A program made the translations under genes and the position numbers. Below are positions 5,283 through 41,789 of a stretch of 64,000 nucleotides of DNA, in pieces. Under the pieces are notes generated by a model that was given only the letters and a program-made list of their open reading frames with translations, searched no databases and had not been told where the DNA came from. The stretch covers positions 124,001 to 188,000 of the forward strand of contig NZ_CADFEI010000015.1 of assembly GCF_902833225.1 (NCBI RefSeq), given 5' to 3'. This DNA comes from Burkholderia sp. BCC1644 (lineage in GTDB: Bacteria; Pseudomonadota; Gammaproteobacteria; Burkholderiales; Burkholderiaceae). How positions within the stretch are numbered: the first letter of the stretch is position 1; every line of letters starts with the position of its first letter.

Positions 5283-5930
5283 TCAGCCGTGACGCGTCAG
5301 CGCCGCCTGCGCATCGGCCTCGAAACCGAACTGCGTCGCAGCGAACTGCAACAGCGTATCGACGCACGCCGCGAGCGACACGCACCCGGTATCGATCGTG
5401 AGATCGGCTTCCACCGGCGGTTCGTACGGCGCCGAAACGCCCGTGAATTCCGGCAGCGCACCGCACCGCGCCTTCGCATACAGCCCTTTCGGATCCCGCG
5501 TCTCGCAGCAGGCCAGCGGCGTGCTCACATACACTTCACGGAATGCCGGCCCCACGATTGCTCTCGCCGCATCGCGCATCGCCGCAAGCGGCGAAATGAC
5601 CGCGACGATCGCCAGCGCACCGGATTCGCTCGTCAGCGCCGCGACTTCGGCGATGCGTCGCACGTTCTCGAAGCGATCCTGCACCGTAAAACCGAGATCC
5701 CGATTCAGCCCCGTCCGCAACCGGTCGCCGTCGAGCACCACCGGATGCACGCGCCGGTCGCGCAGTCGCGCCGCCACCGCGTCGGCCAGCGTCGTCTTGC
5801 CCGCGCCCGACAACCCCGTGAGCCACAACACCCCGCCGGCCCGCTGCGGCGATGCGCTCCGCCCTGCGCGAGCCACGTCTACCGATAAGGACGAAACGAC
5901 GTTCGGAAACCCGCAACGATCGATTTTCAT
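5283..5930 (-). CDS. cysC: Adenylylsulfate (APS) kinase CysC
   Basis: A 215-residue cytoplasmic enzyme predicted to phosphorylate APS to PAPS, the sulfuryl donor for sulfotransferases. The Walker A loop GLSGAGKTT lies at about residues 40-48. The typical VVLDGDRLRTGLN segment, the FTVQDRFENVRR stretch and the late DPKGLYAKA motif follow. I use the ATG at 5930, which overlaps the stop of the upstream gene (TGATG). That tight coupling with the TIGR03032 gene suggests a joint role. No cysD, cysN, cysH or sulfotransferase is present in the window, so PAPS use in ordinary sulfate assimilation is not supported by context. Sulfation of a surface product is an inference. Confidence 0.88.
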   Translation of the reverse strand: MKIDRCGFPNVVSSLSVDVARAGRSASPQRAGGVLWLTGLSGAGKTTLADAVAARLRDRRVHPVVLDGDRLRTGLNRDLGFTVQDRFENVRRIAEVAALTSESGALAIVAVISPLAAMRDAARAIVGPAFREVYVSTPLACCETRDPKGLYAKARCGALPEFTGVSAPYEPPVEADLTIDTGCVSLAACVDTLLQFAATQFGFEADAQAALTRHG

Positions 5931-7102: not shown

Positions 7103-7709
7103 GCACCTGTCGGCTTCACGCCGCCTGATGAGAAAAAATGCGCGCGTTTGCGTACTCCCGCCCGCTGGCCCGACGCACGCGCGTCGATCGCGAACAGTGC
7201 CGCGTACGGCGCACCAAGTCGCAGCTCCCACCTACCTAGACGGAACGAAGCGCGGATTGCCGCAATGTTTTTTGCGTGACGCCGGCCGATCCGCCGGCAG
7301 GGGCAAGCGGTCGACGCAAGCGGCCTGCAATGCGCGCGGCCGCCCCTCGCGCGAGACTCGCGAGACGCGGCGCATGACCTTGCGTGGCCCCCGTTTCGTG
7401 TACGTGTCGTTGCCTGGCCGACGGGCGGCGCTTCAGCGGCCCGCGCGCTAAACCGCGACGGGCCAGCGTGCGGCCCGACAATCCTCCGGTTTCAACCGGG
7501 AAGTTTTTGTGACATTCCACTGAAGATATTCACGAAACACGCGCGAAACACGGCACGCGATCGTCGGGACCGTTTACGCGGCACCGCCGCACCGCGGCCT
7601 CGCGGCGCGCGGCACGGCAGACCGCAAGCGCGTACGAAATCCTGCGGCTTGCGGCCACCCGCTTCGTCCTAGCTATTGAGAACAGAACACGTCAACGACA
7701 GGACACTCC
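7103..7709. other. Intergenic region between divergent genes
   Basis: About 600 bases with no convincing gene. Open frames here have poor composition and no ribosome binding site. A small hairpin (CCGGT, 4-base loop, ACCGG, about 7486-7499) is followed by GAAGTTTTT on the plus strand. The promoters of the TIGR03032-cysC pair (leftward) and of the 7710 gene (rightward) should lie here. I see no copy of the locus promoter module. Confidence 0.5.
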
Positions 7710-9301: not shown

Positions 9302-9368
9302 AGCCGGATGCGGCACGTGCCGGCGCGGTGAACTGCGAACCGGGCCGGCGACGTGCGACCGGCCCCCG

Positions 9369-12400: not shown

Positions 12401-12659
12401 GATCACGCCACCGCCCGAAGCTCATTCGACACACCTTCCCCGCACCGCACATCGCCGCGGCCGGGGCGCTTGCCACCCATGCCTCGGGTCCGACGACGCC
12501 CCGCCGGGCCGTCATCGAAGACGGCCCGGCGTTTGCCGGCCCTCATGGATAAAGTCGTATCGAAGGGCCGTAACCCGCAGCGCGGGCAGCCCAAAAGCAG
12601 GCGAACGGGCCGCCTGGCGGAGACACGAGGAAAGGAAGCGGAAGACGCGGGAAACCGCG
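12401..12659. other. Intergenic with a strong hairpin
   Basis: No gene. A perfect 11-bp inverted repeat (12503-12513 and 12520-12530, 6-base loop, GC-rich) lies downstream of the FecR gene. It lacks a clear U-tract on either strand, so it may be a weak or factor-assisted terminator, or an RNA end-protection element, for the sigma/anti-sigma transcript. Confidence 0.4.
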
Positions 12660-13655
12660 TCAGCTCAGCAGCACGATGTTGCCGGGCAGGCGCGTGATGT
12701 GCGCGCCGTACAGGCGGCCGACCATGTCGATCACGTCGTCGAGCCGCGTGATCGGGAACTGCGCCTGCATCCGGTTCGCGCCGAGCGACGCGCTGCGCAG
12801 GATGACCTTGCCGCGCCGGTAGCGGTTGATCTCGTCGACGACGTCCGACAGCGGCACGCCGTTGAACACCAGCATGCCGCGCCGCCACGCGCTGACGGCG
12901 CCCGGATCGATCCGCGACACCGGCTGCACGCCGCGATCGTCGTAGACGACCTGATCGTCGGCGTTCAGCGTGCGCGCGCCGCGCGGATGCTGGAGCGCGA
13001 CCGTGCCGGACAGGCAGGTCACGCAAACCTGCGTGCCCGTGCGCCGCACGTTGAAGCGCGCGACGGTCGCCTGCATGCGGCCGCCGCCCGCCACCACCGT
13101 GACGGGCTGGATCGGCGTCGCGCGGCCGGCCGGCGGCGCGACCGCGTCGATCTCGGCCTCCCCCGCGACGACTTCGACGCCGTGTGCGGCATCGCTCGCG
13201 GGCAGCACGTCGAGACGCGTCTGCGTATTCAACTCGACCGTCACGCGCGACGACAGCGCGACGCTGCGCTGCTCGCCGGTGCCCGTGTGGTAATCGGCCG
13301 CGATGTCACCGAGCGACGGCCACAGCTGCATCGGCGGGCGTACCGCGAGCCACGACGCGCCGGCCGCGACCGCGAAACCGATGAACGCGCGCCGTCCGGT
13401 GCGCATCGTGCGCTCGCGCTTTGCAACGTTTGCCCAGGCGGCGGCCGCCCGCTCCTCGTGCGCAAGCTCGGTCGCCGCCGTGCGCAGCGAACTCCAGGTG
13501 CCGCGCAGCAGATCGGCGGCTTGCGGACGATCGGCACACCAGCGCTCGAACGCGTCGGCTTCAGCCTGGCTCGCTTCTCCCGAGCGCAGACGCAGCAGCC
13601 ACGCGCTCGCTTCGTCGAGTTCGTCGTGGGCAGGTTGGGCCTGGGCTTTCGTCAT
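12660..13655 (-). CDS. FecR-type anti-sigma factor (VreR-like)
   Basis: A 331-residue single-pass regulator of the adjacent ECF sigma factor. It has an N-terminal DUF4880 region (about 12-50), a membrane helix near 88-106 (RAFIGFAVAAGASWLAV), a FecR domain (about 115-215) and a C-terminal DUF4974-like domain (about 255-331) that would meet the STN signal in the periplasm. I use ATG 13655; a TTG at 13670 that overlaps the sigma stop is an alternative and would give tighter coupling. The gene order STN protein, sigma, FecR is that of the P. aeruginosa vreA-vreI-vreR cluster, though function is inferred. Confidence 0.85.
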   Translation of the reverse strand: MTKAQAQPAHDELDEASAWLLRLRSGEASQAEADAFERWCADRPQAADLLRGTWSSLRTAATELAHEERAAAAWANVAKRERTMRTGRRAFIGFAVAAGASWLAVRPPMQLWPSLGDIAADYHTGTGEQRSVALSSRVTVELNTQTRLDVLPASDAAHGVEVVAGEAEIDAVAPPAGRATPIQPVTVVAGGGRMQATVARFNVRRTGTQVCVTCLSGTVALQHPRGARTLNADDQVVYDDRGVQPVSRIDPGAVSAWRRGMLVFNGVPLSDVVDEINRYRRGKVILRSASLGANRMQAQFPITRLDDVIDMVGRLYGAHITRLPGNIVLLS

Positions 13656-13666
13656 CGTCCGGGTGC

Positions 13667-14215
13667 TCAAAATTTGCGCGGGCCGCCTCGCGTGCCCGTG
13701 TACGGATCACCGTCTTCCTGCATGCGCTGCAGGCAGTACTTCATCGCCGCGCTCAGCTCGCTTTCGACGAGCCGCAGCGATATGCCGAAATGCTCGGCGA
13801 TCTCGCGGTTCAGCAGGCCGTCCACGCGGGCGGCCAGCAGGATCGCGCGACGCCGCGGCGGCAGGCCGCGCAGCACGTCCTTCAGGGTCTCGACCTTGCG
13901 GCGCGCCGCGACGATGCGCTCGGGATCGGCCACTTCGTCGGGCATCTCGAGCAGCGTCTCGACATCGTCGTCGTGCAGATGCCGCCGTTCGCGGCGATGC
14001 TGGTCGATCGCGACATTGTTCGCCATCCCGAGTATATAGGCGTCCGCGTTCGTCACCTGCGTGGAGACGTTCGCGTTCTCGAGGCGCAGCCAGGTTTCGT
14101 GCAGCGCATCGGCGGCGCCGTCCTTCGATCCCGTCACGCGTTCGAGCCGCCTGACCAGGTACGCGTAGCGCGTCGCCAGCAGATTGCGGAGCCCGGAGCG
14201 GTTGCTGTCGGACAT
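13667..14215 (-). CDS. ECF (FecI-like) RNA polymerase sigma factor (VreI-like)
   Basis: A 182-residue sigma-70 family ECF factor. Region 2 lies at about 20-85 (DALHETWLRLENA and NADAYILGMANNVAIDQHRR). Region 4 lies at about 112-165 (LPPRRRAILLAARVDGL then REIAEHFGISLRLVE), the DNA-binding helix-turn-helix. It sits 6 bases after the STN gene and its end meets the FecR start, so the three form one signalling operon. Likely targets are units of this locus. The shared promoter module upstream of gspI, of the glycosyltransferase operon and of tpsA, with its GTC element, is a candidate. Confidence 0.9.
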   Translation of the reverse strand: MSDSNRSGLRNLLATRYAYLVRRLERVTGSKDGAADALHETWLRLENANVSTQVTNADAYILGMANNVAIDQHRRERRHLHDDDVETLLEMPDEVADPERIVAARRKVETLKDVLRGLPPRRRAILLAARVDGLLNREIAEHFGISLRLVESELSAAMKYCLQRMQEDGDPYTGTRGGPRKF

Positions 14216-14221
14216 GGCGGC

Positions 14222-14968
14222 CTAGCCCCGCACGGCCGGCTGCGGCGCCGGGCAACGGAAATGCACGCCGTTGCCGGCCGGCCGCAACAGGATCGTGACC
14301 GGCTGCGGCAGGTCCGCCGGCGGCCCATCGTCCAGCTTCAGCGCGCGCAGCGCGCGCATCACCGCCGCGTCGCGGGCGGCCGAACCGCTCGATGCCACCA
14401 TGTTGACCGCCACCACCGCCCCCCTGTTGTCGATGCGCACCTGCGCGACGAGTCGATAGCTGCCCGGCACCGCCGCCGGCTGCGCGCACAGCGCATCGAT
14501 CAGACGCGCCTGCAGCAGGCCCGCAAACGCGCGCCGATCGCCTGAATCGCCGATCCCGTCGATCGGCAACGCCGCATCCGCCGGCGTGTCGGCCGTCGCG
14601 GGCGGCGTCTCGCCGGCCGGCTGCGCGACGATGATCGCTTCGTCCGGACGCGAGAATTCCGCACGCAACCCCGTTCCGGCCAGCATCCGCTCGAGCGCGT
14701 CGCGCGGCGCGAAGTCGCCCTGTACCGGCGCACTCGTGCGCCCGTCGAGCAGCGGCGCCGGCGCCAGCACGATCAGCTCGGTGAGCCGCGCGAAGTCCTG
14801 CAAGGTCTTCGCGAGCGGCTGCGCGGGCAGATCGAAATGCACCGCGCTGCCCGGCTGGCGGCCGATGGAACCGGTCTCCTGCGCGTGCACGCCGCGCATG
14901 CACAGCACGACGAACGCGAGCCACGCGACGAGCGCCAGGACACCGGTCGGCGCCCGTGAACGAGTCAT
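14222..14968 (-). CDS. STN-domain periplasmic signalling protein with TonB-C-like domain (VreA-like)
   Basis: A 248-residue exported protein. The start at ATG 14968 follows AGGGA. The signal peptide spans about residues 1-29. An STN (secretin/TonB short N-terminal) domain lies at about 44-115 (FDLPAQPLAKTLQDFARLTE, then PVQGDFAPRDALERMLAGTG). After a Pro/Ala linker the last 80 residues resemble a TonB C-terminal domain (YRLVAQVRIDNRGAVVAVNM). There is no receptor barrel, unlike FecA-type transducers. This is the layout described for VreA of the PUMA3 system. It would signal to the FecR-like protein and the ECF sigma factor encoded directly downstream. Confidence 0.82.
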   Translation of the reverse strand: MTRSRAPTGVLALVAWLAFVVLCMRGVHAQETGSIGRQPGSAVHFDLPAQPLAKTLQDFARLTELIVLAPAPLLDGRTSAPVQGDFAPRDALERMLAGTGLRAEFSRPDEAIIVAQPAGETPPATADTPADAALPIDGIGDSGDRRAFAGLLQARLIDALCAQPAAVPGSYRLVAQVRIDNRGAVVAVNMVASSGSAARDAAVMRALRALKLDDGPPADLPQPVTILLRPAGNGVHFRCPAPQPAVRG

Positions 14969-15151
14969 GAATCCCTGGACGGAAGTGGAGTTGCACGCTG
15001 CGTGCCGAAGCGCGTGCCCCCGTGAGCGGCTCCGTCGCAAGCGAACGACAGATTGTGAGCGGGCACTGTGACAGTCAGGTGAAGCGTGCAGCGGCGCGAT
15101 TCAATCGCGGCGCGTGCGCGCAGCGTGTTCACGCCCGGTGCCACGCGTCGC

Positions 15152-15649: not shown

Positions 15650-15659
15650 GGGTATGCCG

Positions 15660-16145: not shown

Positions 16146-16206
16146 GCATTCACCCTCGCAGCAAAGAATGGAGAACGTCTTCTGTCCATCGCATCGGCCT
16201 GTCGCC

Positions 16207-16653
16207 ATGAAACCCTTCGACCTGCTTCGCATCGCGCCTTCCCGCGCCGATCTCGCACCGCTTGTGGCAACGCTCGCCGCCGCCGCGGCACTCATTACCG
16301 TATCGCTGTGGGCCGTGCGCGTATTGAGCGCCGCCGATGCGCCGGTCGCATCGTTTGCACCGCCGCCCGCGCCAATCGACGTCGCGGCCGGCGCGCGGCT
16401 GTTCGGCGCGAAACCCGACGACGGCCGCGATGCCATCCAGCTGCTCGGCGTACTCGCCTTCGATGCGCGCCGCGCGGCTGCGATCGTCAGCGTCGGCGGC
16501 GACGCATCGCGCGTCGTGTCGCTCGGCGCGGCGATCGGCGAAGCCCCGAAGCTTGCCGAGGTTCGCGCACGCTCGATCGTCGTCGACCGCAACGGCCTGC
16601 AACGCGAGATCACGCTGCCCGCCGTGGAGAAAGCCAACGCGTTCGTGCGCTGA
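16207..16653 (+). CDS. gspC: Type II secretion inner-membrane protein GspC (short form)
   Basis: A 148-residue protein with one membrane helix (about 25-45) followed by the homology-region part of GspC (LFGAKPDDGRDAIQLLGVLA, then RAAAIVSVGGDASRVVSLG). It has no C-terminal PDZ or coiled-coil domain. HxcP and XcpP-type proteins couple the assembly platform to the secretin by this region. It is alone on the plus strand between gspG and gspF, and it converges on the gspF end with a 13-base gap. Confidence 0.78.
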   Translation: MKPFDLLRIAPSRADLAPLVATLAAAAALITVSLWAVRVLSAADAPVASFAPPPAPIDVAAGARLFGAKPDDGRDAIQLLGVLAFDARRAAAIVSVGGDASRVVSLGAAIGEAPKLAEVRARSIVVDRNGLQREITLPAVEKANAFVR

Positions 16654-16666
16654 GCCGAACCGCGCG

Positions 16667-17884
16667 TCACTGCACCATGTTGTTTAGCTCGATGATCGGC
16701 ATCATCACCGCCAGCACGATCACGAGCACCACGCCACCCATCGCGAGGATCAACAGCGGTTCGAGCAGGCTCGTCAGGAACATCGTGCGGCGCTCCAGCT
16801 CGCGCGATTCGCCTTCGGATGCGCGATCGAGCATCGTGGTCACGTCGCCCGTCGCCTCGCCCGAACGGATCAGGTGCACGAGTACCGGCGGGAACGTCTT
16901 CGTATGGGCCAACGCACGCGACAGCGCGGAGCCCTCGCGCACGCGGACGATCGCGTCGTCGACGTTCGCGCGCATCGCACGATTCGACAACGTCTCGCCG
17001 GCCGCCTGCAACGCGCGCAGGATCGGTACGCCGGCCGCGGTGAGGATGCCGAGCGTGCTCGCGAAGCGCACCGTGTTGTAGCCACGCACGAGCTTGCCTG
17101 CCAGCGGCGTGGTCAGCAGCCACGTGTCGAACCTGAGCCGCGGCGCATCGCGCGACAGCACCTTGCGGACCGCATAGACGATCGCGACCGTCGCCACGAG
17201 CGACGCCCACCACCAGTGCCGCACGAAATCCGACAGCGCGAGCATCACGACCGTCAGCGTCGGCAGTTGCTGCTTGGTGCTGGTGAACACGTTCGCGACC
17301 TGCGGCACCACGTAGCTCAACAGGAACGTGACGATGCCGAACGCGATCAGCGTGACGATGCCCGGATACGTGAACGCGAGCAGGATCTTCTGTTTCAGCG
17401 CGTTGCTTTGTTCGATGTAGTCGGCCAGGCGCGACAGCACGATGCCGAGCTTGCCGGTGTGCTCGCCGGCCGCGACGAGCGCGCGGTAGATTTCAGGGAA
17501 ATCGCGCGGATGCTGGGTCAGCGCATTCGCGAACGAATGGCCGCCGACGACTTCCGCGCGGATCGATGCCATCAGCTCGCGCACGTAGTCGCGCTCGGCC
17601 TGCTCGCTCAGCACCGACAGCGATTCGTCGAGCGGCAGCCCTGCGACCAGCAGGCTCGCGAGCTGGCGCGTGATGATCGCCTGCTCGCGCTGTGACAGCT
17701 TGCGTCCGAGCGACAGGCGCTGGTGGCGCTCGCCGTGCAGGCGCTGTGCCGCAAGTTCGACGACGAGCGGCGTGAGACCTTGCGTGCGCAGATGACTGCG
17801 GCCTGCGCGCGCGCTGTCGGCTTCGAGCACGCCTTTCAGCGTGCGGCCGGTGGGATCGATCGCTTCGTAGCGGAATGCCGACAT
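16667..17884 (-). CDS. gspF: Type II secretion inner-membrane platform protein GspF
   Basis: A 405-residue protein with two T2SSF domains (about 70-190 and 275-395) and three membrane helices (near 170, 220 and 378-398). The conserved RQLASLLVAGLPLDESL, EHTGKLG and LIRSGEATGDV motifs are present. The length is usual. It is complete and in frame. No gspE ATPase gene is adjacent, which is unusual because gspE normally precedes gspF. Confidence 0.93.
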   Translation of the reverse strand: MSAFRYEAIDPTGRTLKGVLEADSARAGRSHLRTQGLTPLVVELAAQRLHGERHQRLSLGRKLSQREQAIITRQLASLLVAGLPLDESLSVLSEQAERDYVRELMASIRAEVVGGHSFANALTQHPRDFPEIYRALVAAGEHTGKLGIVLSRLADYIEQSNALKQKILLAFTYPGIVTLIAFGIVTFLLSYVVPQVANVFTSTKQQLPTLTVVMLALSDFVRHWWWASLVATVAIVYAVRKVLSRDAPRLRFDTWLLTTPLAGKLVRGYNTVRFASTLGILTAAGVPILRALQAAGETLSNRAMRANVDDAIVRVREGSALSRALAHTKTFPPVLVHLIRSGEATGDVTTMLDRASEGESRELERRTMFLTSLLEPLLILAMGGVVLVIVLAVMMPIIELNNMVQ

Positions 17885-18547
17885 GCCGGTGCTCTCCTGT
17901 CACGTGCGCGACTGCTTTCGATGACGTCGCGCAGCATGCCGGACGGAGTCGCCGGGGAAGACTACGGAGCGAACCGGCGCAAATTTGTGACGGATGTTGG
18001 GCTACCTTTTTTGGCGGGCTTTATTACCTGGGTTATCCATTCTTATAACGTAAAAACGATTTCACCCTTATCCAATCAATTAATCGGTCACACATTAAAT
18101 ACACACACGTTGCCTCGCGCTTCAATTTACGGATTCGCACGGCCAACTAAAGAAATACATCAAAGACGTGGATATTCATCGACGCACGGAATGTTCCGTA
18201 GCATCCGCCACAAAACCGTCTTGAAGTTGGGATAGCGCTTCCCGGGCTCGCGTACTACGCCGACAGCTTCCGTCAAGTGTGATGCGGGCTCCCACACACG
18301 ATCCGTCGAACAACCCTGGTTGAATCCCAATATCTGAACACTCCGGTCTGTGCCGAATAACGCCCCAATCTACGCCTTATCAATTCGAATAACGCAATGA
18401 CTTGTCAGTTGAAAATGTTACGCACCATTCGTTATGAAAAATTCACACGCGTCATTCGGATTTCCCCCTACATTTACCCGGCGGTCCAAAAGCATTCCAA
18501 CCGCAGTAGCAGGGGTTCCCGTTTATCTTCGTCCAAGGAAATTTCTC
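17885..18547. other. AT-rich intergenic region upstream of gspF and the DING gene
   Basis: About 660 bases, clearly lower in GC than the neighbours, with no credible gene. It must hold the promoters of gspF (leftward) and of the DING gene (rightward). A copy of the 13-base core motif lies at 18417-18429. A partly similar stretch (CCATTC, TTAT, then A-rich, then TTCAC) recurs near 18037-18065 and 18424-18447. Confidence 0.5.
18397..18429 (-). promoter_or_regulatory. Partial copy of the locus promoter module, pointing to gspF
   Basis: The core GTTACGCACCATT (18417-18429, one change from the copies at 33559 and 40511) is preceded on the plus strand after 2 bases by a heptamer (18408-18414), 4 bases, then ATGACTT (18397-18403). 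The spacing equals that of the other copies, but the inner heptamer is degenerate and no GTC is seen at the usual distance. It reads leftward towards gspF, but it could also act on the DING gene. Confidence 0.45.
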
Positions 18548-20040: not shown

Positions 20041-20489
20041 TCCGCAAGCTCATCCCCCCGTTCTTTCCGGCCTGGGTATCACGGTCGCGATGGCCGCACC
20101 AAACGTGCAAGGCGGTGGCTCATCGCTCGTCGCCCCGGTAATCGGCGCAACCTGCAGCCCCACGACCGAAATCAGGATGTTTGGCACATCGGAACACCGC
20201 AGAGCATCGCGATAACATCAGCCAGCGCATTCCACCTTCCGGCTACCCTATTTCCGGTACGAACCAGATCATTCCGAGTCAGTGTCATACCGACCCCAGC
20301 GTCAGTACAGCAATACACGACTTCCTGAACGCGCACTATACGAATGCCTGCTTCGCACCGATCATTCGCGGCAACGGCTTCGATACGGTTCCGGATGCCT
20401 ATCAGAGAGCCATCTCTGACGACCTCCCGAGCAACGCACGTGGCCGCAGTAACCCGAGCGTCTGCGCCGGTACTGTTGTAGGCCGGCAA
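20041..20489 (+). pseudogene. Decayed second copy of the DING gene
   Basis: The segment matches the upstream DING gene in pieces. The signal-peptide end and mature start (AMAAPNVQGGGSSLVAPVIG) are readable but hit a TAA at about 20214. The middle, some 800 bases, is missing. Sequence resumes with a short GCCAGCGCATTCCA match, then SGYPISGTNQIIPSQCHTDP through GNGFDTVPDAYQRAISDDL to SVCAGTVVGR. The original stop codon is lost (CAA in place of TAA). Two deletions, frame breaks and substitutions mark it as non-functional. The remaining 3' frame of about 100 codons is unlikely to be used. Confidence 0.9.
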
Positions 20490-20520
20490 GCGATCGACAA
20501 GCCGATTTCCAGGTGCAAGC

Positions 20521-33431: not shown

Positions 33432-33521
33432 TCTTGCCACCCCGATGCTAGGAATTTGCGCGCGGCGCCGGTCCGGCACCGCACATGTCGTTGCGCCCGA
33501 AACAGGCCGCTGGAATCCGAA

Positions 33522-33571
33522 GACCATACGAAGCGCGAATGGCAGCGACATGGCGACTGTTACGGACCATT
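33522..33571 (-). promoter_or_regulatory. Composite promoter module of tpsA
   Basis: In minus-strand sense: core AATGGTCCGTAAC (33571-33559), 2 bases, heptamer TCGCCAT (33556-33550), 4 bases, heptamer CTGCCAT (33545-33539), 14 bases, then GTC (33524-33522) within TATGGTCTT. The two heptamers resemble CTGTCAT Pho-box repeats at the standard 11-bp period. The GTC sits about 91 bases before the start codon, in the place of a -10 element. The role is inferred from its conservation at three units. Confidence 0.65.
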
Positions 33572-33587
33572 CCGGCCGCCGTGAAAA

Positions 33588-33608
33588 GGTCCGTAGCTTT
33601 TGTCATGG
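33588..33608 (+). promoter_or_regulatory. Inverted partial copy of the module
   Basis: GGTCCGTAGC (33588-33597), 2 bases, then TTGTCAT (33600-33606) on the plus strand. It faces the tpsA copy and so makes an inverted repeat of eight matching bases with a 19-base gap. The second heptamer is poor. It could help looping or cooperative binding at tpsA, or promote transcription antisense to the preceding gene. Confidence 0.4.
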
Positions 33609-33616
33609 AAGGCCGG

Positions 33617-35890
33617 TCACGCCGCCTCGGAGCGGTCGCGGCGTACCGTGCCGAGCGCGTCGGCCACGCGGCCGACGACAGCCGGCCAGTCTCCCGGCCG
33701 CGTCTGCCGGAACAGCGTCGCGGCCGGATACCACGGGCTGCCGTCGCGCTCGAGCAGCCAGCGCCAGTCCGGCACGCGCGGCAGCAGCACCCAGACGGGC
33801 CGCCCGAGCGCGCCCGCCAGATGCGCGACCGACGTGTCGACGCTGATCACGAGATCCAGCGTGTCGACCAGCGCAGCCGTTTCGGCGAAATCCTGCAACG
33901 CGTCCGCGAACGACAGCACGCCGCTCGTGGCAAGCGCGTCGGCATCACGCGCACGCACCTGCGGCTGCAAGCTCACGAACGTCACGTCGAGCGCATCGCA
34001 CCCGACGAGCGGCGCGAGCGCGGCGAACGGTATCGAGCGGTTTTCGTCGTTCGCGTGGCGCGGATTGCCGGACCACGCGAGCCCGACCCGCAGCCGGCCC
34101 GGCGGCGCTATCGCGTCGATACGCTGCACCCACGCGGCACGCCGCGACGCATCGGCGCGCAGGTACGGCACGTCGGCCGGCACCGTATCGAGCGTCGTGC
34201 GGAACGCGTACGGCAGGCTCATCAGCGGACACTGCAGGTCGAACGCCGGCATCGGCTGCCCTTCGGTGACAACCCGGCTCACGCCGCGCAGCGTGCCGAG
34301 CAGCTCGCCGAGCGCGGCCGGCGCCTCGACGATCACGGTCGCGCCCGCGTCGTGCGCCAGGTTCGCGTAGCGGCAAAACTGCAGCGTGTCGCCGTACCCC
34401 TGCTCCGCATGCAGCAGCAGCGTGCGGCCGGCGAGCGGTTCGTCGCCGGTCCACAGCGGCCGGTCCGCATGACGCCGGTGCAGCATCACGTCGGCCGCAT
34501 CCCAGCGCGCCTCGTGCTGCCGCCAGCCCGCATCGAAATCGCCCGTCAGCAGCCGGCAGAACGCCTCGGAACGGCGCGCGGCGCCGTGGTTCGGATCGCG
34601 CCGGCAGGCATCGGCGTAGTCGGTCAGCGCGGCGGCATCGTCGCCGAGGTGCTGGCGCGCGAGCGCACGCGTGAACAGGGCCTGCGCAGTTTCCGCCGGT
34701 GCGGCCGCCGCCGCCGCATGGCTCGCGAGCGCCTCGTCGTAGCGGCCGAGCTGCTGTAGCGCGAGCGCGCGGTTGTAATGCAGTTCCGCATGCGGGCCCG
34801 TCAGCGCCAGCGCCGCGTCGTAATCGGCGAGCGCATCGTCGAACCGGCCGAGTGCGCGCAGCGCGGCCGCACTGTTGCGGCGCGCGTCGATATCGTCGGG
34901 TTTGCGCGCCAGTGCTTGCGCATAAGCCTGGGCGGCTTGCGCATGACGTTCGAGCCCGAGCAGCGCATTGCCGCGCCCGACCCATGCCGCGACATTGCCG
35001 CGATTCAGCGCGAGCAGCCGGTCGCAGCGCTTCAGCAATTCGTCGCGGGCATGCAGCAGATCCAGCGCGACGCAACTCGCGTACAGCAACTGCTCGTCTT
35101 TCGGCAACCGTGCGAGCCCTTCGTCGAGACACGCGAGCGCATCGGCCGGGCGGCCGAGTTCGGTCATCACGACGCCGCACGCGTAGACGATCTCCGGCGT
35201 CTTGCCGCGCGCGACCATCGCGAGCTGATAGCTGTGCAGCGCCTGCTCGCGATGACCGAGCGCTCGCAGTGCATGCCCGCGCTCGAGGTTCGCGGCCGCA
35301 TCGTTCGGGTCGATCCGCAACGCGCGCTCGATGCTGATCAGCGCATCGGCAGGCCGGTCGAGCCAGCGCAACGTCTCGCCGCGCTTGCGCCACGCCGTTG
35401 CGTGCGCCGGTTCCCGCACGAGCGCCCGATCGTAGGCCGTGAGCGCCGCGTCGTATTGCCCGAGCGCGAGCAGCGCATCGCCGCGCGCCGCATTCGACGG
35501 CGCATGGTCCGGATCGGCCGCGAGTGCGCGATCGGCGAGCGCGAGCGCGTCGCGGTGACGGCCGACACCGGTCAGCGCCGCCGCATGGTTCGCCAGATTC
35601 CACGGCTGGTTCAATCCGAACCGCATCGAGCGCGAGATCAGCGGCTCCGCCCGCCCGGGATCGCCGAGCTGCAGATACACGAGACCCAGCAGGTGCAGCG
35701 CCTCGACATGGTCGGGCGCCATCGTCAGTACGCCTTCGTAGAGCCGTCCGGCCCCCGCGAAGTCGCGCAGTTCGAGCCGCGCGCGGGCCTGGCGAAGCGC
35801 ATCGTCGAGCACCGCACGCAACGGCGCGGCGCTTGCGCCGAAGCCGGCGCCGGCGCCGGGCGACGGTGCGGCCCCGCGGCGCGTATTCAT
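33617..35890 (-). CDS. TPR protein with C-terminal GT9-like glycosyltransferase domain (third of three)
   Basis: A 757-residue cytoplasmic protein. The N-terminal 470 residues are about twelve tetratricopeptide repeats (LHLLGLVYLQLGDPGRAEPL and similar). The C-terminal 260 residues carry the pattern of a GT9/heptosyltransferase-like fold: TLLLHAEQGYGDTLQFCRY, RVGLAWSGNPRHANDENRS, and DLVISVDTSVAHLAGALG. The ATG at 35890 overlaps the stop of the upstream paralogue (ATGA), so it is translationally coupled. TPR-linked glycosyltransferases next to TPS adhesins bring to mind HMW1C modification of HMW1A, but HMW1C is family GT41 and the similarity is one of role, not of clear descent. Confidence 0.82.
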   Translation of the reverse strand: MNTRRGAAPSPGAGAGFGASAAPLRAVLDDALRQARARLELRDFAGAGRLYEGVLTMAPDHVEALHLLGLVYLQLGDPGRAEPLISRSMRFGLNQPWNLANHAAALTGVGRHRDALALADRALAADPDHAPSNAARGDALLALGQYDAALTAYDRALVREPAHATAWRKRGETLRWLDRPADALISIERALRIDPNDAAANLERGHALRALGHREQALHSYQLAMVARGKTPEIVYACGVVMTELGRPADALACLDEGLARLPKDEQLLYASCVALDLLHARDELLKRCDRLLALNRGNVAAWVGRGNALLGLERHAQAAQAYAQALARKPDDIDARRNSAAALRALGRFDDALADYDAALALTGPHAELHYNRALALQQLGRYDEALASHAAAAAAPAETAQALFTRALARQHLGDDAAALTDYADACRRDPNHGAARRSEAFCRLLTGDFDAGWRQHEARWDAADVMLHRRHADRPLWTGDEPLAGRTLLLHAEQGYGDTLQFCRYANLAHDAGATVIVEAPAALGELLGTLRGVSRVVTEGQPMPAFDLQCPLMSLPYAFRTTLDTVPADVPYLRADASRRAAWVQRIDAIAPPGRLRVGLAWSGNPRHANDENRSIPFAALAPLVGCDALDVTFVSLQPQVRARDADALATSGVLSFADALQDFAETAALVDTLDLVISVDTSVAHLAGALGRPVWVLLPRVPDWRWLLERDGSPWYPAATLFRQTRPGDWPAVVGRVADALGTVRRDRSEAA

Positions 35891-38130
35891 CGCGCGCCTC
35901 CGCCGACGAGCGTCGGCAGCTCCGCCGCGATCCGCTCGACGACGGGCGCCCACTGCCCGCCCTCGGGCTGGCGGAACAATCGCACCGACGGATACCACGG
36001 GCTGTCGTCCCGCTCGAGCAGCCAGCGGAAATCGGGCGTATGCGGAATCATCAGCGCAAGCGGCCGGCCGAGTGCGCCGGCGAGGTGCGCGACGGACGTA
36101 TCGACGCTGACGATGCCGTCCATCAGCGCGGTCAGCGCGGCCGTATCGGCGAAATCCGCAAGGTCGTCGCCGACGAAGCGCACCGCGCTCGCGTCGAGCA
36201 CCGGACGATCCTCGTCGCGGACCACTTTCTGCAGGCTGATCCACTCGTAACGGTCGTCGAACAGCGGCAGCAGATCCGCGAGCGTCATCGAGCGGTTGCG
36301 GTCGTTCAGGTGCAGCGGGTTGCCGGACCACACGAGACCGATGCGCGGCCGCGTCGGTGCGCCAAGCCGTTCGCGCCATTGCGCGATACGCACGGGATCG
36401 GCAGAGAGATACGGCACGCCGGCCGGAATCGACTCCAGGTCCGTGCGGAACTCGAGCGGCAGGCTCAGCAGCGGGCAATGCTGGTCGAACGGCGGCAGCG
36501 GCTCGCCGCGCGCGACGAGCGCATCGACACCGTCGAGCGTGGCGAACAGCGCCTTCAGTTCGACCGGCGCTTCGAGCACGACGCGTGCGCCGAGCGCTTT
36601 CACGAGCGGAACATAGCGGCAGAACTGCAGCGTGTCGCCGAGCCCCTGTTCCGGGTACAGCAGGATCGTCTTGCCGTCGAGCGGCATCCCGTGCGTCCAG
36701 CGCGGCTGCGCGAACGTGCGCCGGCTCGCGTCGAGCTGCGTATCACGCCAGCGCCATTCGTACTCGGCCCAGCCCGCTTCGAAATCGCCGATCGACAAAC
36801 ACAGGAACGCGCGCATGCAGTGTGCGAGCACGTAGTCGGGATCGATCTCGATCGCATCCGCATAGGCCTGCCGCGCGGCGTCGTGATGCCGCAGCGCGCG
36901 CAGCGCATTGCCCTTGTGAAAGTGCGCAAGTTTGTCGCGCGGCGTCGCGTCGATCACGCGCGCGAAATCGTCGAGCGCAGCGGCGTAGCGGTGCGTTTCG
37001 AGCTGCACGCGGCCGCGCGTGAACCACGCGGGCACATAGCCCGCATCGAGCGCGAGCGCACGGTCGCACATGTCGCGCGCATCGTCATGACGCTCGATGC
37101 GCATCAGCGCGCTCGCGTAGTTGCACAGCACGCCGGTGCTGCGCGGTTCCGCGTCGAGCGCGCGCGCATAGCTGTCGGCCGCATCGCGATAGCGCTCCAG
37201 GTGGCTGGCCGCGTTGCCGCGGTTCGCCAGCGCCCGCGCATGGCGCGGATCGATCGCGAGCACGCGGTCGCAGCGCACGAGCGCCTCGTCGTGCCGGCCG
37301 AGCAGCTCGAGCGCGATCGAGCTGTTGAAGATCGCATCGACGAAGGTCGGGCTCGCCGCGATTGCCGCATTGAAATCCGCGAGCGCGCGCGCGGGATCGT
37401 TCAGGTCGAGATAGGCGACACCGCGCAGGAACAGCACCTCGGCGCTGCCCGGCATTTGCGCAAGCGCGTAGCCGTAGCTGTCGACGGCATCGCGAAAGCG
37501 GCCGAGTTCGCGCAGCGCGAGACCGCGCCCGCGCATCGCGTCGAACGAACGCCCGGCCAGCGCGATCGATCGATCGCAATCGGCGAGCGCGTCGTCGTGA
37601 CGGCCGAGCGCGCGCTGCATGTCGCTGCGCTTCACATAACCGTCGGCAAAACCGGGCGTCAGCTCGAGCAGCCGATCGTAGACCGCACACGCATCGTCGT
37701 GCCGCGCGAGTTGCGCGAGCAGGCCCGCGCGCTGGAACAGCACGCGCTGATGAACCGGATTGATCGCGAGCGCTTCGTCGAGCCGCGCGAGCGCGTCGTG
37801 CTCGCGCCCGAGCCCGGTCAGCACCGCCGCGTAATTCGCGAGCGCGAGCGGCACCGGCCGACGCTCGATCGAGCGCCGCATCAGCGGCTCGGCATCGTCG
37901 AGGCGCCCTTGCTGAAAGCGCACCGCGCCGAGCAGGTGCAGCGCCTCCGGATGCTCGGGATCGAGCGTCAGCAATTCCGTATACGCGTGTTCCGCATGCT
38001 GCAGCGCGCCGTCGTGGTGCGCCTTGCGCGCACGCAGGAGCAGCCGTTCGAGTTGCGCGGTGTCGGGCGGACGGCGATCCGGCGCGACCGGCGCGCTCGC
38101 GAGTGTCGTCCCTTCCCCGTTCGGTGTCAT
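35887..38130 (-). CDS. TPR protein with C-terminal GT9-like glycosyltransferase domain (second of three)
   Basis: A 747-residue paralogue of its neighbours. TPR units fill about residues 30-470 (EALHLLGAVRFQQGRLDDAE). The C-terminal catalytic-like domain has ILLYPEQGLGDTLQFCRYVP, RIGLVWSGNPLHLNDRNRS and VSVDTSVAHLAGALGRPLAL, then FRWLLERDDSPWYPS. It starts 42 bases after the first paralogue and overlaps the third by four bases, forming one operon with no internal promoter motif that I can see. Confidence 0.82.
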   Translation of the reverse strand: MTPNGEGTTLASAPVAPDRRPPDTAQLERLLLRARKAHHDGALQHAEHAYTELLTLDPEHPEALHLLGAVRFQQGRLDDAEPLMRRSIERRPVPLALANYAAVLTGLGREHDALARLDEALAINPVHQRVLFQRAGLLAQLARHDDACAVYDRLLELTPGFADGYVKRSDMQRALGRHDDALADCDRSIALAGRSFDAMRGRGLALRELGRFRDAVDSYGYALAQMPGSAEVLFLRGVAYLDLNDPARALADFNAAIAASPTFVDAIFNSSIALELLGRHDEALVRCDRVLAIDPRHARALANRGNAASHLERYRDAADSYARALDAEPRSTGVLCNYASALMRIERHDDARDMCDRALALDAGYVPAWFTRGRVQLETHRYAAALDDFARVIDATPRDKLAHFHKGNALRALRHHDAARQAYADAIEIDPDYVLAHCMRAFLCLSIGDFEAGWAEYEWRWRDTQLDASRRTFAQPRWTHGMPLDGKTILLYPEQGLGDTLQFCRYVPLVKALGARVVLEAPVELKALFATLDGVDALVARGEPLPPFDQHCPLLSLPLEFRTDLESIPAGVPYLSADPVRIAQWRERLGAPTRPRIGLVWSGNPLHLNDRNRSMTLADLLPLFDDRYEWISLQKVVRDEDRPVLDASAVRFVGDDLADFADTAALTALMDGIVSVDTSVAHLAGALGRPLALMIPHTPDFRWLLERDDSPWYPSVRLFRQPEGGQWAPVVERIAAELPTLVGGGAR

Positions 38131-38172
38131 CGTGTGGCCCCCACTTGTCGCTGTTCGTATCGTGTGTCGTGT

Positions 38173-40395
38173 CTAACGTGTCATCGCCGCGATCGCGGCA
38201 CGCACCGCGTCGATCGCGCCCGTCCAGTCGCCCGGCGCCGCCTGCCGGAACAGCCGCGCGGACGGATACCACGGGCTGTCGCCGCGGGTCCGCATCCAGC
38301 GCCACTCGGCCGGATCGGGCAGCAGCACCCAGACCGCGTGGCCCAGCGCACCCGCCAGATGCGCGACGGCGGAATCGACCGCAATCACGAGATCCAGCGC
38401 GCCGATCAGCGCGGCCGTGTCTGCGAAATCGCCGAGTTCGTCGTCGACGCGGCGCACCGGCGCCTCCGCGAGCAGCGCCGCGTCGCGTTCGCGCACGGGT
38501 TTTTGCAGGCTGATCCAGTCGACGTCGAGATCGAACAGCGGCGCGAGCCGCGAGAAATCGATCGACCGGTTGTGATCGTTCCGGTGCTCCGGATTGCCGG
38601 CCCAGGCGATCCCGATTCGCGGCCGGCGCCGTTCGCCGAGCAGCGCTTCCCACTGGCGCGTGCGCTGCGGGTCGGCATGCAGATAGGCGCCGGCACACGG
38701 AATCGTGGCTTCGTCGGTGCGAAACGCGTGCGGCAGGCTCATCAGCGGCGCCTGGCAATCGAACGCCGGCAGCGGCTCGCCACGCGCGATCACGTCGACC
38801 GACCCGGGCAGCGACGCCATCAGCGCGCGCAGCTGCGGCTGCACCTCGAACACGACCCGCGCACCGCGCGCGGCCACCAGCGGCACATAGCGGCAGAAAT
38901 GCAGCGTGTCGCCGAACCCTTGTTCCGCATGAATCAGCACCGTCCGGCCGTCGAGCGGCGTGTCGCCCTGCCACGCCGGCTGCGTGAACGGCCGGTAGTG
39001 CCGCGCAAGCTGCGCGTCGCGCAGCCGCCATTCGTACTCGGGCCAGCCGCGCGCGAAATCGCCTTCGATCAGATACAGCGACGCGCGCGCGAAATGCGCC
39101 TCGGCGTAGTCGGGATGCAGCGCGATCGCGCGGTCATACGCGACGAGCGCGTCGTCCGTGCGCGCCGTTTCGAAATGCAGGTTGCCGCGATTGAGCCAGT
39201 TCGTCGCGTGATCGGGACGCAGCGCGAGCGCACGGTCGATCGACGCCATCGCTTCGTCGTAGCGGTGCAGGTCCTGCAACACGCTGCTGCGGTTGGTCCA
39301 CGCCTCGGCGAACCGCGCGTCGCGCGCAAGCGCGGCATCGTAGCTGGCCAGCGCGTCGTCGTAACGCTTCAGGTAACGCAGCGCGGTGCCGCGGTTGCAC
39401 AACGTCTCCGCCGAGTGCGGATCGAGCGCCAGCGCGCGCGCATAGGCGGCCAGTGCTTCGTCGTGGCGCTTGAGCTGCAACAACGCATTGCCGCGACTCG
39501 CATGGGCGCGGACATGATCCGGATCGAACGCCAGCACGCGCTCGCAGCGGGCCAGCGCTTCGTCCGCGCGGCCGAGCCGTTCGAGCGCAACCGCGCTGTT
39601 GTAAAGCACGTCGATCCGCGCGGGATCGGCCGCGATCGCCTCGTTGAACGCGTCGAGCGCCTCGCCCGGCCGATCGAGATCGATCAGCGTGCGGCCGCGC
39701 TCGGCCATGATCGCAGCGATGCCGGGCCGGATCGCGCTGGCGCGCTCGAAGCACTGCAGCGCATCGGCCTGCCGCTGCAGTTCGCGCAGCGCGAGGCCGC
39801 GGTTGAACCACGATTCGAACGAACGCGGGTCGACCATCAGCGCGCGATCGTAGGTATCGAGCGCTTCGTCGAAGCGGCGCAGCGCACGCAGCGCACTGCC
39901 GCGATTGCAGAGCGCATCGAGCACCAGCGGCGACACGGCGAGCGCGCGGTCGAACGACGCGAGCGCGTCGTCGTAGCGGCGCAATCCGAGCAGCGTATTG
40001 CCACGTCGCACGAGCGTCTGCACGTCGTCGGGCGTCGCGCGCAGCGCGGCCGCGAAATGCTCGAGCGCTTCGCCGGCGCGGCCGCGCTCGCCGGCGATCG
40101 CGCCGAGATCCGACAGCGCGCGCGTGCCCGGTGCGATCGCGATCGACTGGCGCAGCAATGCTTCGGCGTCGTCGGCCGCGCCGCGCTGGAACTGCAGCAC
40201 GCCGTACAGGTGCAATGCCTGGGGATTGTCCGGCTCGTTCTCGAGCACGGCGAGGTATTCGCGCGCCGCGTCGTCGAATCGTCCGGCGCCATGCCAGTTC
40301 TGTGCGCGGCTCAGGATCGCCGCCGATTGCCGTTGACCGCGCGCGTCGAGTCCCGACGCGCCCGCGTGTGCATCATGCCGGTGCTCGACCGTCAC
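38173..40395 (-). CDS. TPR protein with C-terminal GT9-like glycosyltransferase domain (first of three)
   Basis: A 740-residue paralogue and the first gene of the operon. TPR repeats fill about residues 30-460 (ALHLYGVLQFQRGAADDAEA; LCNRGSALRALRRFDEALD). The C-terminal GT9-like domain has VLIHAEQGFGDTLHFCRYVP, RIGIAWAGNPEHRNDHNRS and LVIAVDSAVAHLAGALGHAV. The second paralogue differs mainly in the loops near these motifs, which may mean different acceptors. The promoter module ends about 80 bases upstream of the start. Acceptor and donor sugars are unknown; the tpsA product is the natural acceptor by position. Confidence 0.82.
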   Translation of the reverse strand: MTVEHRHDAHAGASGLDARGQRQSAAILSRAQNWHGAGRFDDAAREYLAVLENEPDNPQALHLYGVLQFQRGAADDAEALLRQSIAIAPGTRALSDLGAIAGERGRAGEALEHFAAALRATPDDVQTLVRRGNTLLGLRRYDDALASFDRALAVSPLVLDALCNRGSALRALRRFDEALDTYDRALMVDPRSFESWFNRGLALRELQRQADALQCFERASAIRPGIAAIMAERGRTLIDLDRPGEALDAFNEAIAADPARIDVLYNSAVALERLGRADEALARCERVLAFDPDHVRAHASRGNALLQLKRHDEALAAYARALALDPHSAETLCNRGTALRYLKRYDDALASYDAALARDARFAEAWTNRSSVLQDLHRYDEAMASIDRALALRPDHATNWLNRGNLHFETARTDDALVAYDRAIALHPDYAEAHFARASLYLIEGDFARGWPEYEWRLRDAQLARHYRPFTQPAWQGDTPLDGRTVLIHAEQGFGDTLHFCRYVPLVAARGARVVFEVQPQLRALMASLPGSVDVIARGEPLPAFDCQAPLMSLPHAFRTDEATIPCAGAYLHADPQRTRQWEALLGERRRPRIGIAWAGNPEHRNDHNRSIDFSRLAPLFDLDVDWISLQKPVRERDAALLAEAPVRRVDDELGDFADTAALIGALDLVIAVDSAVAHLAGALGHAVWVLLPDPAEWRWMRTRGDSPWYPSARLFRQAAPGDWTGAIDAVRAAIAAMTR

Positions 40396-40474
40396 GTTCG
40401 CCCCCTTCCCGTTTGCCGATGCCGCCGCTGGCCCGGCTCGATGGAACCGGTCGCGGCGGTCATGCTCGTCACGA

Positions 40475-40523
40475 GACTAACGGACGGGCAATAACAGACG
40501 TATGACGAAAGTTACGGACCATT
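40475..40523 (-). promoter_or_regulatory. Composite promoter module of the TPR-glycosyltransferase operon
   Basis: Minus-strand sense: core AATGGTCCGTAAC (40523-40511), 2 bases, TCGTCAT (40508-40502), ACGT, CTGTTAT (40497-40491), 13 bases, GTC (40477-40475). The heptamer pair fits the Pho-box pattern best of the set (5/7 and 6/7 to CTGTCAT). A degenerate core (GGTCCGTCCC, 40541-40532) lies 21 bases further upstream, two helical turns away. Confidence 0.65.
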
Positions 40524-40573
40524 TTGCCCGGGGGACGGACCACATTGCCGGCCGGATGCAGCGCGTGCCGCCG

Positions 40574-41236
40574 TCACTGGCCGATCGGGATCGTCCGCAC
40601 GTATTCGACGGCCGGCGCGCCCATCGTGACCGCGAAGCGCACGCCGCGCGGCAGCGGCATGCCGAGCGACGTGATGTTGCTGACGCCGTGCTGCGCGAGA
40701 AACTGCGCATAGGACTGTTCGATGACGGTCTGGCTCGTCGTCCATCCCCCCGGCGGAATCCACACCGAAAGCTGCATCGTCCGCGCATCATTGCTCACCA
40801 CCACGCGCGCGAACGTGTCGATGTGTTGCAGCGCGTCCTCCACGTCGGCCAGCGACGCAAGCGGCTGCGACGCGCTGCGCACGAGTTCGCGCCCCTTGAG
40901 CTGGTAGCGCACGACCTGCATCTGCGCCGGCCCGCTGCCGACGCCGAGACGACGCACCATCACGAGTTCGTTCGGGCGAATGCGCAGCGGGGGCCCGAAC
41001 ACTTCGTCCGCCGTCACGAGGTTCGTCAGGTCGAATTGCAACTGGGAGAAATAGCGGCCGAGCAGACGCGTTTGCGACAGATTCGACGCGATATCGTCGC
41101 GGCCGCGGATCGTCGCATCGAGGCCGCGCCACGACAGCAGCGCGATCACGGCGAGCAGCGCGATCGCGACCAGCATCTCGATCAGCGTGAAGCCGCGGGC
41201 ACGCGCCGCCGCGCGCGGTTCAATGGCGCGCTTCAT
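40574..41236 (-). CDS. gspJ: Type II secretion minor pseudopilin GspJ
   Basis: A 220-residue protein with a short basic leader, the site and helix RGFTLIEMLVAIALLAVIAL (Glu5 present), and the GspJ globular part (LSWRGLDATIRGRDDIASNL, LGRYFSQLQFDLTNL). It overlaps the gspI end by 17 bases. Together with GspI and GspK it should form the pseudopilus tip. Confidence 0.88.
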   Translation of the reverse strand: MKRAIEPRAAARARGFTLIEMLVAIALLAVIALLSWRGLDATIRGRDDIASNLSQTRLLGRYFSQLQFDLTNLVTADEVFGPPLRIRPNELVMVRRLGVGSGPAQMQVVRYQLKGRELVRSASQPLASLADVEDALQHIDTFARVVVSNDARTMQLSVWIPPGGWTTSQTVIEQSYAQFLAQHGVSNITSLGMPLPRGVRFAVTMGAPAVEYVRTIPIGQ

Positions 41237-41663
41237 TCTGGATCACCGTGACGACTTCGGCGAGCACGTTGCGGCTCGACGAGGATGGATACACGCTGAC
41301 CGTCACGCGCCGCACCAGCGGGCTCGGCAACGCGGCCACCGACTGGCGGCACACGAACCGGTAGCGGCCCTGCGGGCACGCGAACGTGTTCGTGCCGACG
41401 GACGGCCACGCCGATGCAATGCGGATTTCGCCAAGCGCGTTGTCGGCGCTCCAGAGCGCGAGCAGGCGCATGCGCGCCATGTCGGTATCCGACGCGAGCG
41501 CGCCGATCGCGCGCATCACGGCGCCGAGCGCCACGGCCACGATCGCCAGCGCGATCAGCACCTCGATCAGCGTGAATCCCCGTTGAAGCGTACGCGCCGC
41601 GCGCGATCCGCCGCGCGCATGGCGGCGGTAGTCCGTTCTGTCGTCGCACATGACCTGCATCAT
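41220..41663 (-). CDS. gspI: Type II secretion minor pseudopilin GspI
   Basis: A 147-residue protein. After a long leader of about 29 residues comes the prepilin site and helix RGFTLIEVLIALAIVAVALG (Glu5 present), and the short GspI body (ALWSADNALGEIRI). A later in-frame start would shorten the leader. It is the first gene after a promoter module whose GTC lies 77 bases upstream. It overlaps gspJ. Confidence 0.86.
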   Translation of the reverse strand: MMQVMCDDRTDYRRHARGGSRAARTLQRGFTLIEVLIALAIVAVALGAVMRAIGALASDTDMARMRLLALWSADNALGEIRIASAWPSVGTNTFACPQGRYRFVCRQSVAALPSPLVRRVTVSVYPSSSSRNVLAEVVTVIQNEARH

Positions 41664-41739
41664 TCTTGTCGATGGGTCGGCGTCCGGCGGTCAAACCGCG
41701 GCGCAGGCCGCGTCGCCGGCGCGACGGACGCCGTGCACG

Positions 41740-41789
41740 GACGTTAAGCGCAACGTATGGCACGCACGTGTCGAATGGTACGGACCATT
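41740..41789 (-). promoter_or_regulatory. Composite promoter module of gspIJ
   Basis: Minus-strand sense: core AATGGTCCGTACC (41789-41777), 2 bases, heptamer TCGACAC (41774-41768), 4 bases, GTGCCAT (41763-41757), 14 bases, GTC (41742-41740) in TAACGTCC. The core here extends to a palindrome, AATGGT, four bases, ACCATT. Spacing matches the tpsA copy exactly. Confidence 0.6.

Follow-up and report, generated by a model that had tools for sequence, protein, structure and literature searches.

The question that this locus raises is which regulatory proteins read a composite promoter module that recurs within a single secretion gene cluster of Burkholderia sp. BCC1644. The window analysed here is a stretch of 64,000 nucleotides (assembly GCF_902833225.1, contig NZ_CADFEI010000015.1, positions 124,001 to 188,000), and its cluster includes the two-partner secretion (TPS) genes tpsA and tpsB, genes of a type II secretion system (T2SS), and a gene for an extracytoplasmic function (ECF) sigma factor. 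An initial annotation of this DNA described the module upstream of tpsA, of the first glycosyltransferase gene and of gspI, and proposed a promoter served by PhoB together with the ECF sigma factor. Two separate promoter types are present in the cluster, namely a conserved module confined to it and an ECF-type motif that stands before other genes. On balance, the sequence patterns make it probable that the modules are PhoB-dependent, sigma-70-like promoters at which a separate factor, here called X, occupies a core element, while the ECF sigma factor reads the other promoters.

The modules before tpsA (P1), the first TPR-glycosyltransferase gene (P2) and gspI (P3) carry the core AATGGTCCGTAAC or its variant AATGGTCCGTACC at the positions given in the initial annotation, and they also have the build described there, i.e., core, 2 bp, heptamer, 4 bp, heptamer, 13–14 bp, and GTC. 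Their distances to the start codons agree with ATG 33431 (tpsA), GTG 40395, and ATG 41663. The longest tpsA open reading frame (ORF) begins within the promoter module (33432–33551, minus strand), its probable start being ATG 33431. Four further copies were missing from that annotation: two modules before a PstS/DING-like gene at 18190 (+) and 18414 (+) (distal P5 and proximal P4), a diverged and lower-scoring module before gspF at 18008 (−) (P7), and, at 33585 (+), a partial copy in inverted orientation (P6).

The heptamers were compared with PhoB-type half-sites of the same genome. At up to two mismatches, a consensus Pho pattern has 27 matches in the genome, compared with 8 of its reversed form; of the 27, the one before pstS was used. 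This promoter carries PhoB-type half-sites whose last pair, TTGTCAC-ATTA-CCGTCAT, is followed after 10 bp by TAACCT, and its five half-sites were the sole source of the matrix with which the window letters of the modules were scored. Both heptamer positions rank within the top three of 49 in P1–P5 (five of the six modules), whereas in P7 the first heptamer alone ranks, as the best position. This ranking supports the earlier proposal that a Pho-type direct repeat adjoins the core. Two 7-bp repeats separated by 4 bp are clear in P2 and P4, where all half-sites score at least 5.2, partial in P1, P3, and P5, and reduced to one half-site in P7. A box that replaces the −35 element about 10 bp before the −10 is seen at 10 bp in P1 and P3, which share this geometry with pstS, and at 11 bp in P2, whereas P4 and P5 deviate.

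As for the downstream end, the GTC that had been taken as the conserved terminus of the module gives way to a TAnnnT element, which is kept more strictly among distinct orthologous sequences. GTC is found at its expected place in 11 of 23 such sequences for tpsA, 28 of 31 for the glycosyltransferase gene, and 18 of 30 for gspI, whereas TAnnnT lies at +31 in all 23 tpsA sequences, at +31 or +32 in all 31 glycosyltransferase sequences, and at +31 in 29 of the 30 gspI sequences. Likewise, all 36 sequences of the P4 class have the element at +42 or +43, and all seven gspF sequences used for this count have it at +31 or +32.

The core by itself is only mildly enriched in the window, with 14 matches at three or fewer mismatches against 7.1 expected, a number reached in one of 100 shuffles. 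In the 8.25-Mb genome, a core with at most one mismatch is found at six places, four of them within the window (one being the opposite face of the core at 18414), and the two outside it have no first half-site behind them. The composite AATGKTCCGTANCNNNYGNYAY, which joins the core, three free bases, and the first half-site, is more discriminating: it occurs four times exactly and five times with at most one mismatch, every time in the cluster. With up to two mismatches there are 11 matches in the genome, six of them in the cluster, against five for the reversed-pattern control, and none of the five two-mismatch matches outside the cluster combines both half-sites above 3.8 with TAnnnT at +25 to +47. 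The genome-wide motif search proposed in the initial annotation places the motif in this cluster, neither as a product of chance nor as part of a random genomic scatter.

A position matrix was also built from orthologous sequences, leaving out the class in question each time and using 10 Markov shuffles per run. The window sites P1–P5 score 24.7–37.3 bits, compared with mean null maxima of 11–14. Of 39 distinct gspF upstream regions from relatives, 30 agree with P7 at 17 or more of its 22 positions, and 10, 6, and 7 of these 30 were used for column conservation, matrix scoring, and the GTC and TAnnnT counts, respectively. Apart from the modules, the highest score of every run fell at 18429 (−), with 20.1–27.5 bits; this is the opposite face of the core at 18414 (+), which is nearly palindromic, and it was not counted as a separate module. 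Sequences of related species are not independent, and the class counts exclude 60 distinct composite matches (at most three mismatches) that resemble no class well enough. Some of these are plainly modules of Paraburkholderia or Trinickia, and others are reverse faces of P3 or P4 or chance matches.

The number of cores in relatives goes with the presence of the cluster. The core was searched in 61 genomes of the genus and the ECF gene in 60 of them, where it was found in 32 at E <= 1e-20, in addition to the genome studied here. Core matches average 6.15 in the 33 genomes with the gene (the present one included) and 2.71 in the 28 without it, while the reversed-pattern control does not differ between the same groups (1.42 vs. 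1.68). A scan of named genomes located the ECF gene at 22 loci distributed over Burkholderia, Paraburkholderia, and Trinickia, and each of these genera has loci with core modules. One genome without the ECF gene (G042) retains a flanking core, which looks like the remnant of a lost cluster, since in the stretch compared the window is matched there only from 41599 on.

The conserved ECF-type promoters of the cluster are found at 7265 (−) and 5916 (−), before the DUF4915 gene and before a gene for a protein resembling adenosine phosphosulfate (APS) kinase, rather than at the modules, none of which shows the ECF −35 and −10 downstream of a Pho box expected of a VreI/PUMA3-type promoter. Neither site is accompanied by a strong half-site pair. 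The APS-kinase-like gene (5283–5852) precedes tpsB (3480–5132), behind which exbB, exbD, and tonB are located, and in relatives the motif lies within 500 bp before tpsB. A fuller motif drawn from both sites, TTGCGGNNNTN10TTNCGTCYW, has only these two matches genome-wide with at most one mismatch (control: one). In relatives, it was recovered for tpsB in 10 of 12 distinct rows (all but L157 and L102, the latter with a poor match only) and for the DUF4915 gene in 13 of 15 (all but L045 and L108), identical match sets being counted once; the rows that have it include one Trinickia and one Paraburkholderia. Moreover, the helix-turn-helix of the sigma factor (NREIAE-FGISLRLVE) is unchanged in species whose cores differ.

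The ECF-sigma promoter proposed for P1–P3 in the initial annotation is not supported by these data: a different motif (TTGCGG, 17 bp, CGTC) stands before the DUF4915 and APS-kinase/tpsB genes, the distance from core to TAnnnT is too long for a −35/−10 pair, and the core varies while the DNA-reading helix of the sigma factor stays constant. Most likely, the ECF sigma factor of the cluster does not read promoters of the P1–P3 type, and it would instead read TTGCGG-N17-CGTC. As regards the APS-kinase-like gene itself, its longest ORF begins upstream of the ECF-type promoter, and its region (5283–6029, minus strand) is matched in three of the 10 relatives compared (G215, G130, and G057).

Table 1. 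Promoter modules, ECF-type promoters, and signalling genes located in the window (half-site scores from the pstS matrix).
Feature	Position	Strand	Half-site scores and remarks
P1 core (tpsA), AATGGTCCGTAAC	33559..33571	−	
P1 Pho-type direct repeat, TCGCCAT-4-CTGCCAT	33539..33556	−	3.5, 5.9
P1 −10-like element, TATGGT	33523..33528	−	
P6, inverted core and one half-site TTGTCAT, directly upstream of P1	33585..33606	+	
P2 core (first TPR-glycosyltransferase gene), AATGGTCCGTAAC	40511..40523	−	
P2 Pho-type direct repeat, TCGTCAT-4-CTGTTAT	40491..40508	−	7.9, 7.8; top pair among the modules
P2 −10-like element, TAGTCT	40474..40479	−	
P3 core (gspI), AATGGTCCGTACC	41777..41789	−	
P3 Pho-type direct repeat, TCGACAC-4-GTGCCAT	41757..41774	−	3.0, 4.7
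P3 −10-like element, TAACGT	41741..41746	−	
P5, distal module of the PstS/DING-like gene; core AATGTTCCGTAGC, CCGCCAC-4-CCGTCTT	18190..18222	+	2.3, 4.7
P4, proximal module of the PstS/DING-like gene; core AATGTTACGCACC, TCGTTAT-4-AATTCAC, TACATT at 18469–18474	18414..18474	+	
P7, diverged module before gspF; core AAGGTAGCCCAAC, single half-site CCGTCAC, TAGTCT	17959..18008	−	
ECF-type promoter before the DUF4915 gene, TTGCGG-N17-CGTCTA	7237..7265	−	no core module
ECF-type promoter before the APS-kinase-like gene (5283–5852), TTGCGG-N17-CGTCCT	5888..5916	−	no core module
ECF sigma factor gene (FecI type, VreI-like)	13667..14215	−	
FecR-type anti-sigma factor gene (VreR-like)	12660..13670	−	
Gene for a protein with STN and TonB-C domains (VreA-like)	14222..15040	−	

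The ranking of the heptamers and the TAnnnT build, together with a core that resembles neither an ECF −35 element nor a PhoB half-site, point to PhoB and a housekeeping-type sigma factor acting with an additional factor. Two PhoB half-sites 11 bp apart would stand in for the −35 element, and TAnnnT would be the −10, at 10–11 bp after the half-sites (in P4, about one helical turn farther). The 13-bp core AAtGkTnCgtAnC, two bases upstream of the first half-site, would be the site of a DNA-binding factor X, which would occupy about −55 to −43 next to PhoB and probably assist it at these mostly weak boxes. A further factor at the core had already been suggested in the initial annotation, and the evidence favours it; conservation is what speaks for X, whereas the binding and activation by PhoB, the use of sigma-70, and the start sites are read from the motifs. 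The ECF sigma factor would in turn serve the promoters before the DUF4915 and APS-kinase/tpsB genes, and TpsA and its transporter would answer to different signals.

Several observations weigh against this account. The half-site matrix has a single Pho promoter as its yardstick, and on it the first half-sites of P1 (3.5), P3 (3.0), and P5 (2.3) fall short of the 3.8 that marks the 99% level for random 7-mers, while the second half-site of P7 is unrecognisable (−3.7). Higher scores are reached by single half-site-like words ahead of the core in P1 (8.0 at −16), P4 (6.3 at −12), and P5 (8.2 at −17), none of which has a partner at 11 bp. When its own class is left out, P7 scores 15.7 bits, inside the range of the full-matrix null maxima (up to 20.5). 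The class sequences were gathered with the composite pattern, so that the conservation of its named columns is inflated; columns outside the pattern, e.g., +16, +31, and +36, are free of this collection bias. TAnnnT sits 11–12 bp farther downstream in P4. In P5, TA is present at +31 in the window, but 24 of 26 distinct sequences have no TAnnnT between +25 and +47, and neither do 18 of 19 for P6; P5 and the inverted P6 may be regulatory sites only. The loose form of the ECF motif, TTGC(C/G)G-N17-19-GTC, is common, with 18 places in 48 kb. As described for P. aeruginosa, the tpsA-like gene pdtA requires both PhoB and the sigma factor (PMC4971064). Finally, besides the sigma factor, no transcription-factor domain was recognised in the cluster ORFs scanned, which comprised selected window ORFs and about 7.4 kb to the left; the scan gave one weak antitoxin-type match, below the cut-off and in a doubtful ORF. 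X may be encoded in the cluster, though unrecognisable, or elsewhere, because some conserved ORFs have no family match and not all were scanned.

The description of pdtA is also an argument for the idea, which we regard as unlikely, that PhoB and the ECF sigma factor of the cluster act jointly at the modules, as at P. aeruginosa pdtA and phdA, with GTC as the ECF −10. The cluster is a homologue of PUMA3 as described in Burkholderia (PMC2729926), the pdtA promoter is reported to need its pho box, −35, and −10 together (PMC4971064), the GTC(T/C) near the module end resembles an ECF −10, and P1, P4, and P5 have single half-site-like words before the core. However, none of the 18 loose matches falls at P1–P5 or P7, i.e., TTGC(C/G)G with GTC 17–19 bp farther on is found at none of the six modules, columns +10 to +14 are scarcely conserved, and GTC is less conserved than TAnnnT. 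Moreover, the ECF-type promoters of the cluster are located elsewhere and lack a strong half-site pair. Distant loci place the Pho pair before the −35, whereas here the best-scoring words of the 45 bp preceding the core include no 11-bp pair.

The other two explanations concern the core itself. It could be an unusual PhoB extension that takes up one more PhoB subunit, without any other factor being involved, and in P1 and P2 its positions 7–13 (CCGTAAC) indeed score 4.2 with the pstS matrix, at a fixed spacing to the first heptamer. Nevertheless, that spacing would be 9 bp instead of 11, the column corresponding to the A of a PhoB half-site (core position 12) is variable, the class consensus strings score −0.2 (P3), −6.5 (P4), and −4.6 (P7) at this place, and there is no core match with at most one mismatch at pstS. 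This makes a PhoB extension improbable, and the spacing and the variable column support the earlier statement that the core belongs to no known Pho box. The least probable explanation, in our estimation, takes the core as the −35 of the ECF sigma factor and the second heptamer as its −10 (nGTCAT), the PhoB half-sites being illusory. In its favour, T6 of the core and the G at +16 span 23 bp (counted by eye), as in the ECF-type promoters of distant PUMA3 loci, and P5 has CCGTCTT at the supposed −10. It is opposed by the other conserved ECF-type motif of the cluster and by a core that diverges in P7 and in two Trinickia genomes (G158 and G172) while the sigma helix-turn-helix does not. Furthermore, conservation is stronger in the first heptamer, which would lie in the spacer, than in the supposed −10 (partly through collection bias), and G059 retains cores before gspI and at another site although its ECF paralogues are just 57–59% identical.

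The gene content of the cluster is that of a PUMA3 system, with genes for an STN protein, an ECF sigma factor, and a FecR anti-sigma factor beside TPS, ExbBD, and T2SS genes. Next to the full fecR gene, a free-standing ORF of 88 residues (12140–12406, minus strand) carries a DUF4880 (FecR N-terminal) domain; it is matched in relatives, in five of them with 43–56% identity over 0.5–0.8 of its length, and it is possible that it encodes a second, soluble regulator of the sigma factor. Behind the intact PstS/DING-like gene there is an apparent remnant of a second one (about 20090–20500, plus strand), while two full-length copies stand in tandem in L137 and L203. Three consecutive TPR proteins are encoded between gspJ and tpsA (33617–40395, minus strand), two with a near-cut-off match to glycosyltransferase family 9. 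Among the T2SS genes (7676–17884 and 40574–41663), F, H, I, and K were recognised above the cut-off and C below it, and gspJ was assigned from its N-methylation motif and position; none of the cluster ORFs scanned could be recognised as a secretin or ATPase gene. The cluster continues to the left of the window (about 7.4 kb; 8571–16469 in L231), where it encodes Porin_5, YbjN-like, PpiC isomerase, and PDZ/trypsin-like proteins that are conserved in relatives.

Other genera of the family possess several stn-ecf-fecR-tpsA copies per genome (L211–L229), and multiple copies are likewise reported for Janthinobacterium and Rhodopseudomonas (PMC2729926). In these distant PUMA3-like loci, whose ECF proteins are 42–46% identical, a half-site pair immediately precedes TTGC(C/G)G and GTC in five of 15 tpsA upstream regions (L213, L217, L220, L222, and L229; four pairs from the scan and one partly by eye), and the remaining 10 have no clear half-site pair at a motif of this type. 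For rows L211–L230, L220 at 11571 and L230 were left out, and the rows considered were those with a half-site of at least 6. The composite module has no match at tpsA in 20 distant loci, and an ECF-type promoter precedes tpsB in one of seven, L229 offering little upstream sequence. G009 and G059 (L140, L141, and L197) each contain two ECF paralogues of 56–59% identity, both adjoining a tpsA; tandem TTGCGG promoters stand before two of the four tpsA genes, and gspI and a second site retain core modules.

Promoters combining PhoB with an ECF sigma factor were already known from P. aeruginosa (PMC4971064), and PUMA3 clusters had been described in Burkholderia (PMC2729926), while no report of the core, of two promoter types in one cluster, or of their gene assignment was found among the open-licence papers listed in the literature searches. 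The arrangement suggests that two control signals have been distributed over different parts of a single secretion system. More tentatively, and with somewhat less than even confidence, Burkholderia, Paraburkholderia, and Trinickia may have X as a PhoB partner dedicated to a single secretion cluster, in which the PhoB-and-ECF gate of P. aeruginosa would have been split: cargo and T2SS genes would respond to PhoB and X, and TpsB, the energy module, and DUF4915 to the ECF sigma factor, the "and" being made at secretion. If the split is real, TpsA and TpsB are under different signals and secretion requires both, and the locus would be an example of a two-input promoter taken apart in evolution. 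The assignment can be tested gene by gene: it predicts, for a PUMA3-type cluster in Burkholderia, which genes respond to phosphate and which are under the cell-surface signalling sigma factor, and it points to a putative regulator for which a site, a geometry, and probable targets can be stated.

Compared with the pstS promoter, which we take as a PhoB/sigma-70 promoter, the modules share the 7-4-7 direct repeat, its 11-bp register, and the 10 bp to TAnnnT, and differ by the 13-bp core directly upstream, the mostly weaker half-sites, and the restriction to one cluster. The P. aeruginosa PUMA3 system (VreA-VreI-VreR), as described (PMC4971064, PMC2729926), has the same kinds of components, namely STN, FecI-type sigma, FecR-type anti-sigma, T2SS, TpsA/TpsB, ExbB/ExbD/TonB, and PpiC proteins. 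In the B. vietnamiensis homologue, hxc-like genes are described upstream, interrupted by tpsA, with tpsB and exbBD downstream (PMC2729926), and this order is also that of the window. A Pho-type box is described in the P. aeruginosa target promoters as well, where, compared by description, the pho box and the sigma −35 and −10 share one promoter (PMC4971064). Here, in contrast, tpsA, the glycosyltransferase, DING, gspI, and gspF genes have box, core, and TAnnnT (P5 without TAnnnT, P7 with one half-site), whereas DUF4915 and APS-kinase/tpsB have the ECF-type motif without a clear box pair. The distant tpsA loci also carry 11-bp-spaced Pho half-sites before tpsA beside stn-ecf-fecR, although there the half-sites lie upstream of TTGC(C/G)G and GTC and the composite finds no match. 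Their order of Pho pair, TTGC(C/G)G, and GTC is the arrangement described for P. aeruginosa (PMC4971064), and the TTGCGG-N17-CGTC of the present cluster resembles the ECF/Pho promoters of these distant PUMA3 loci.

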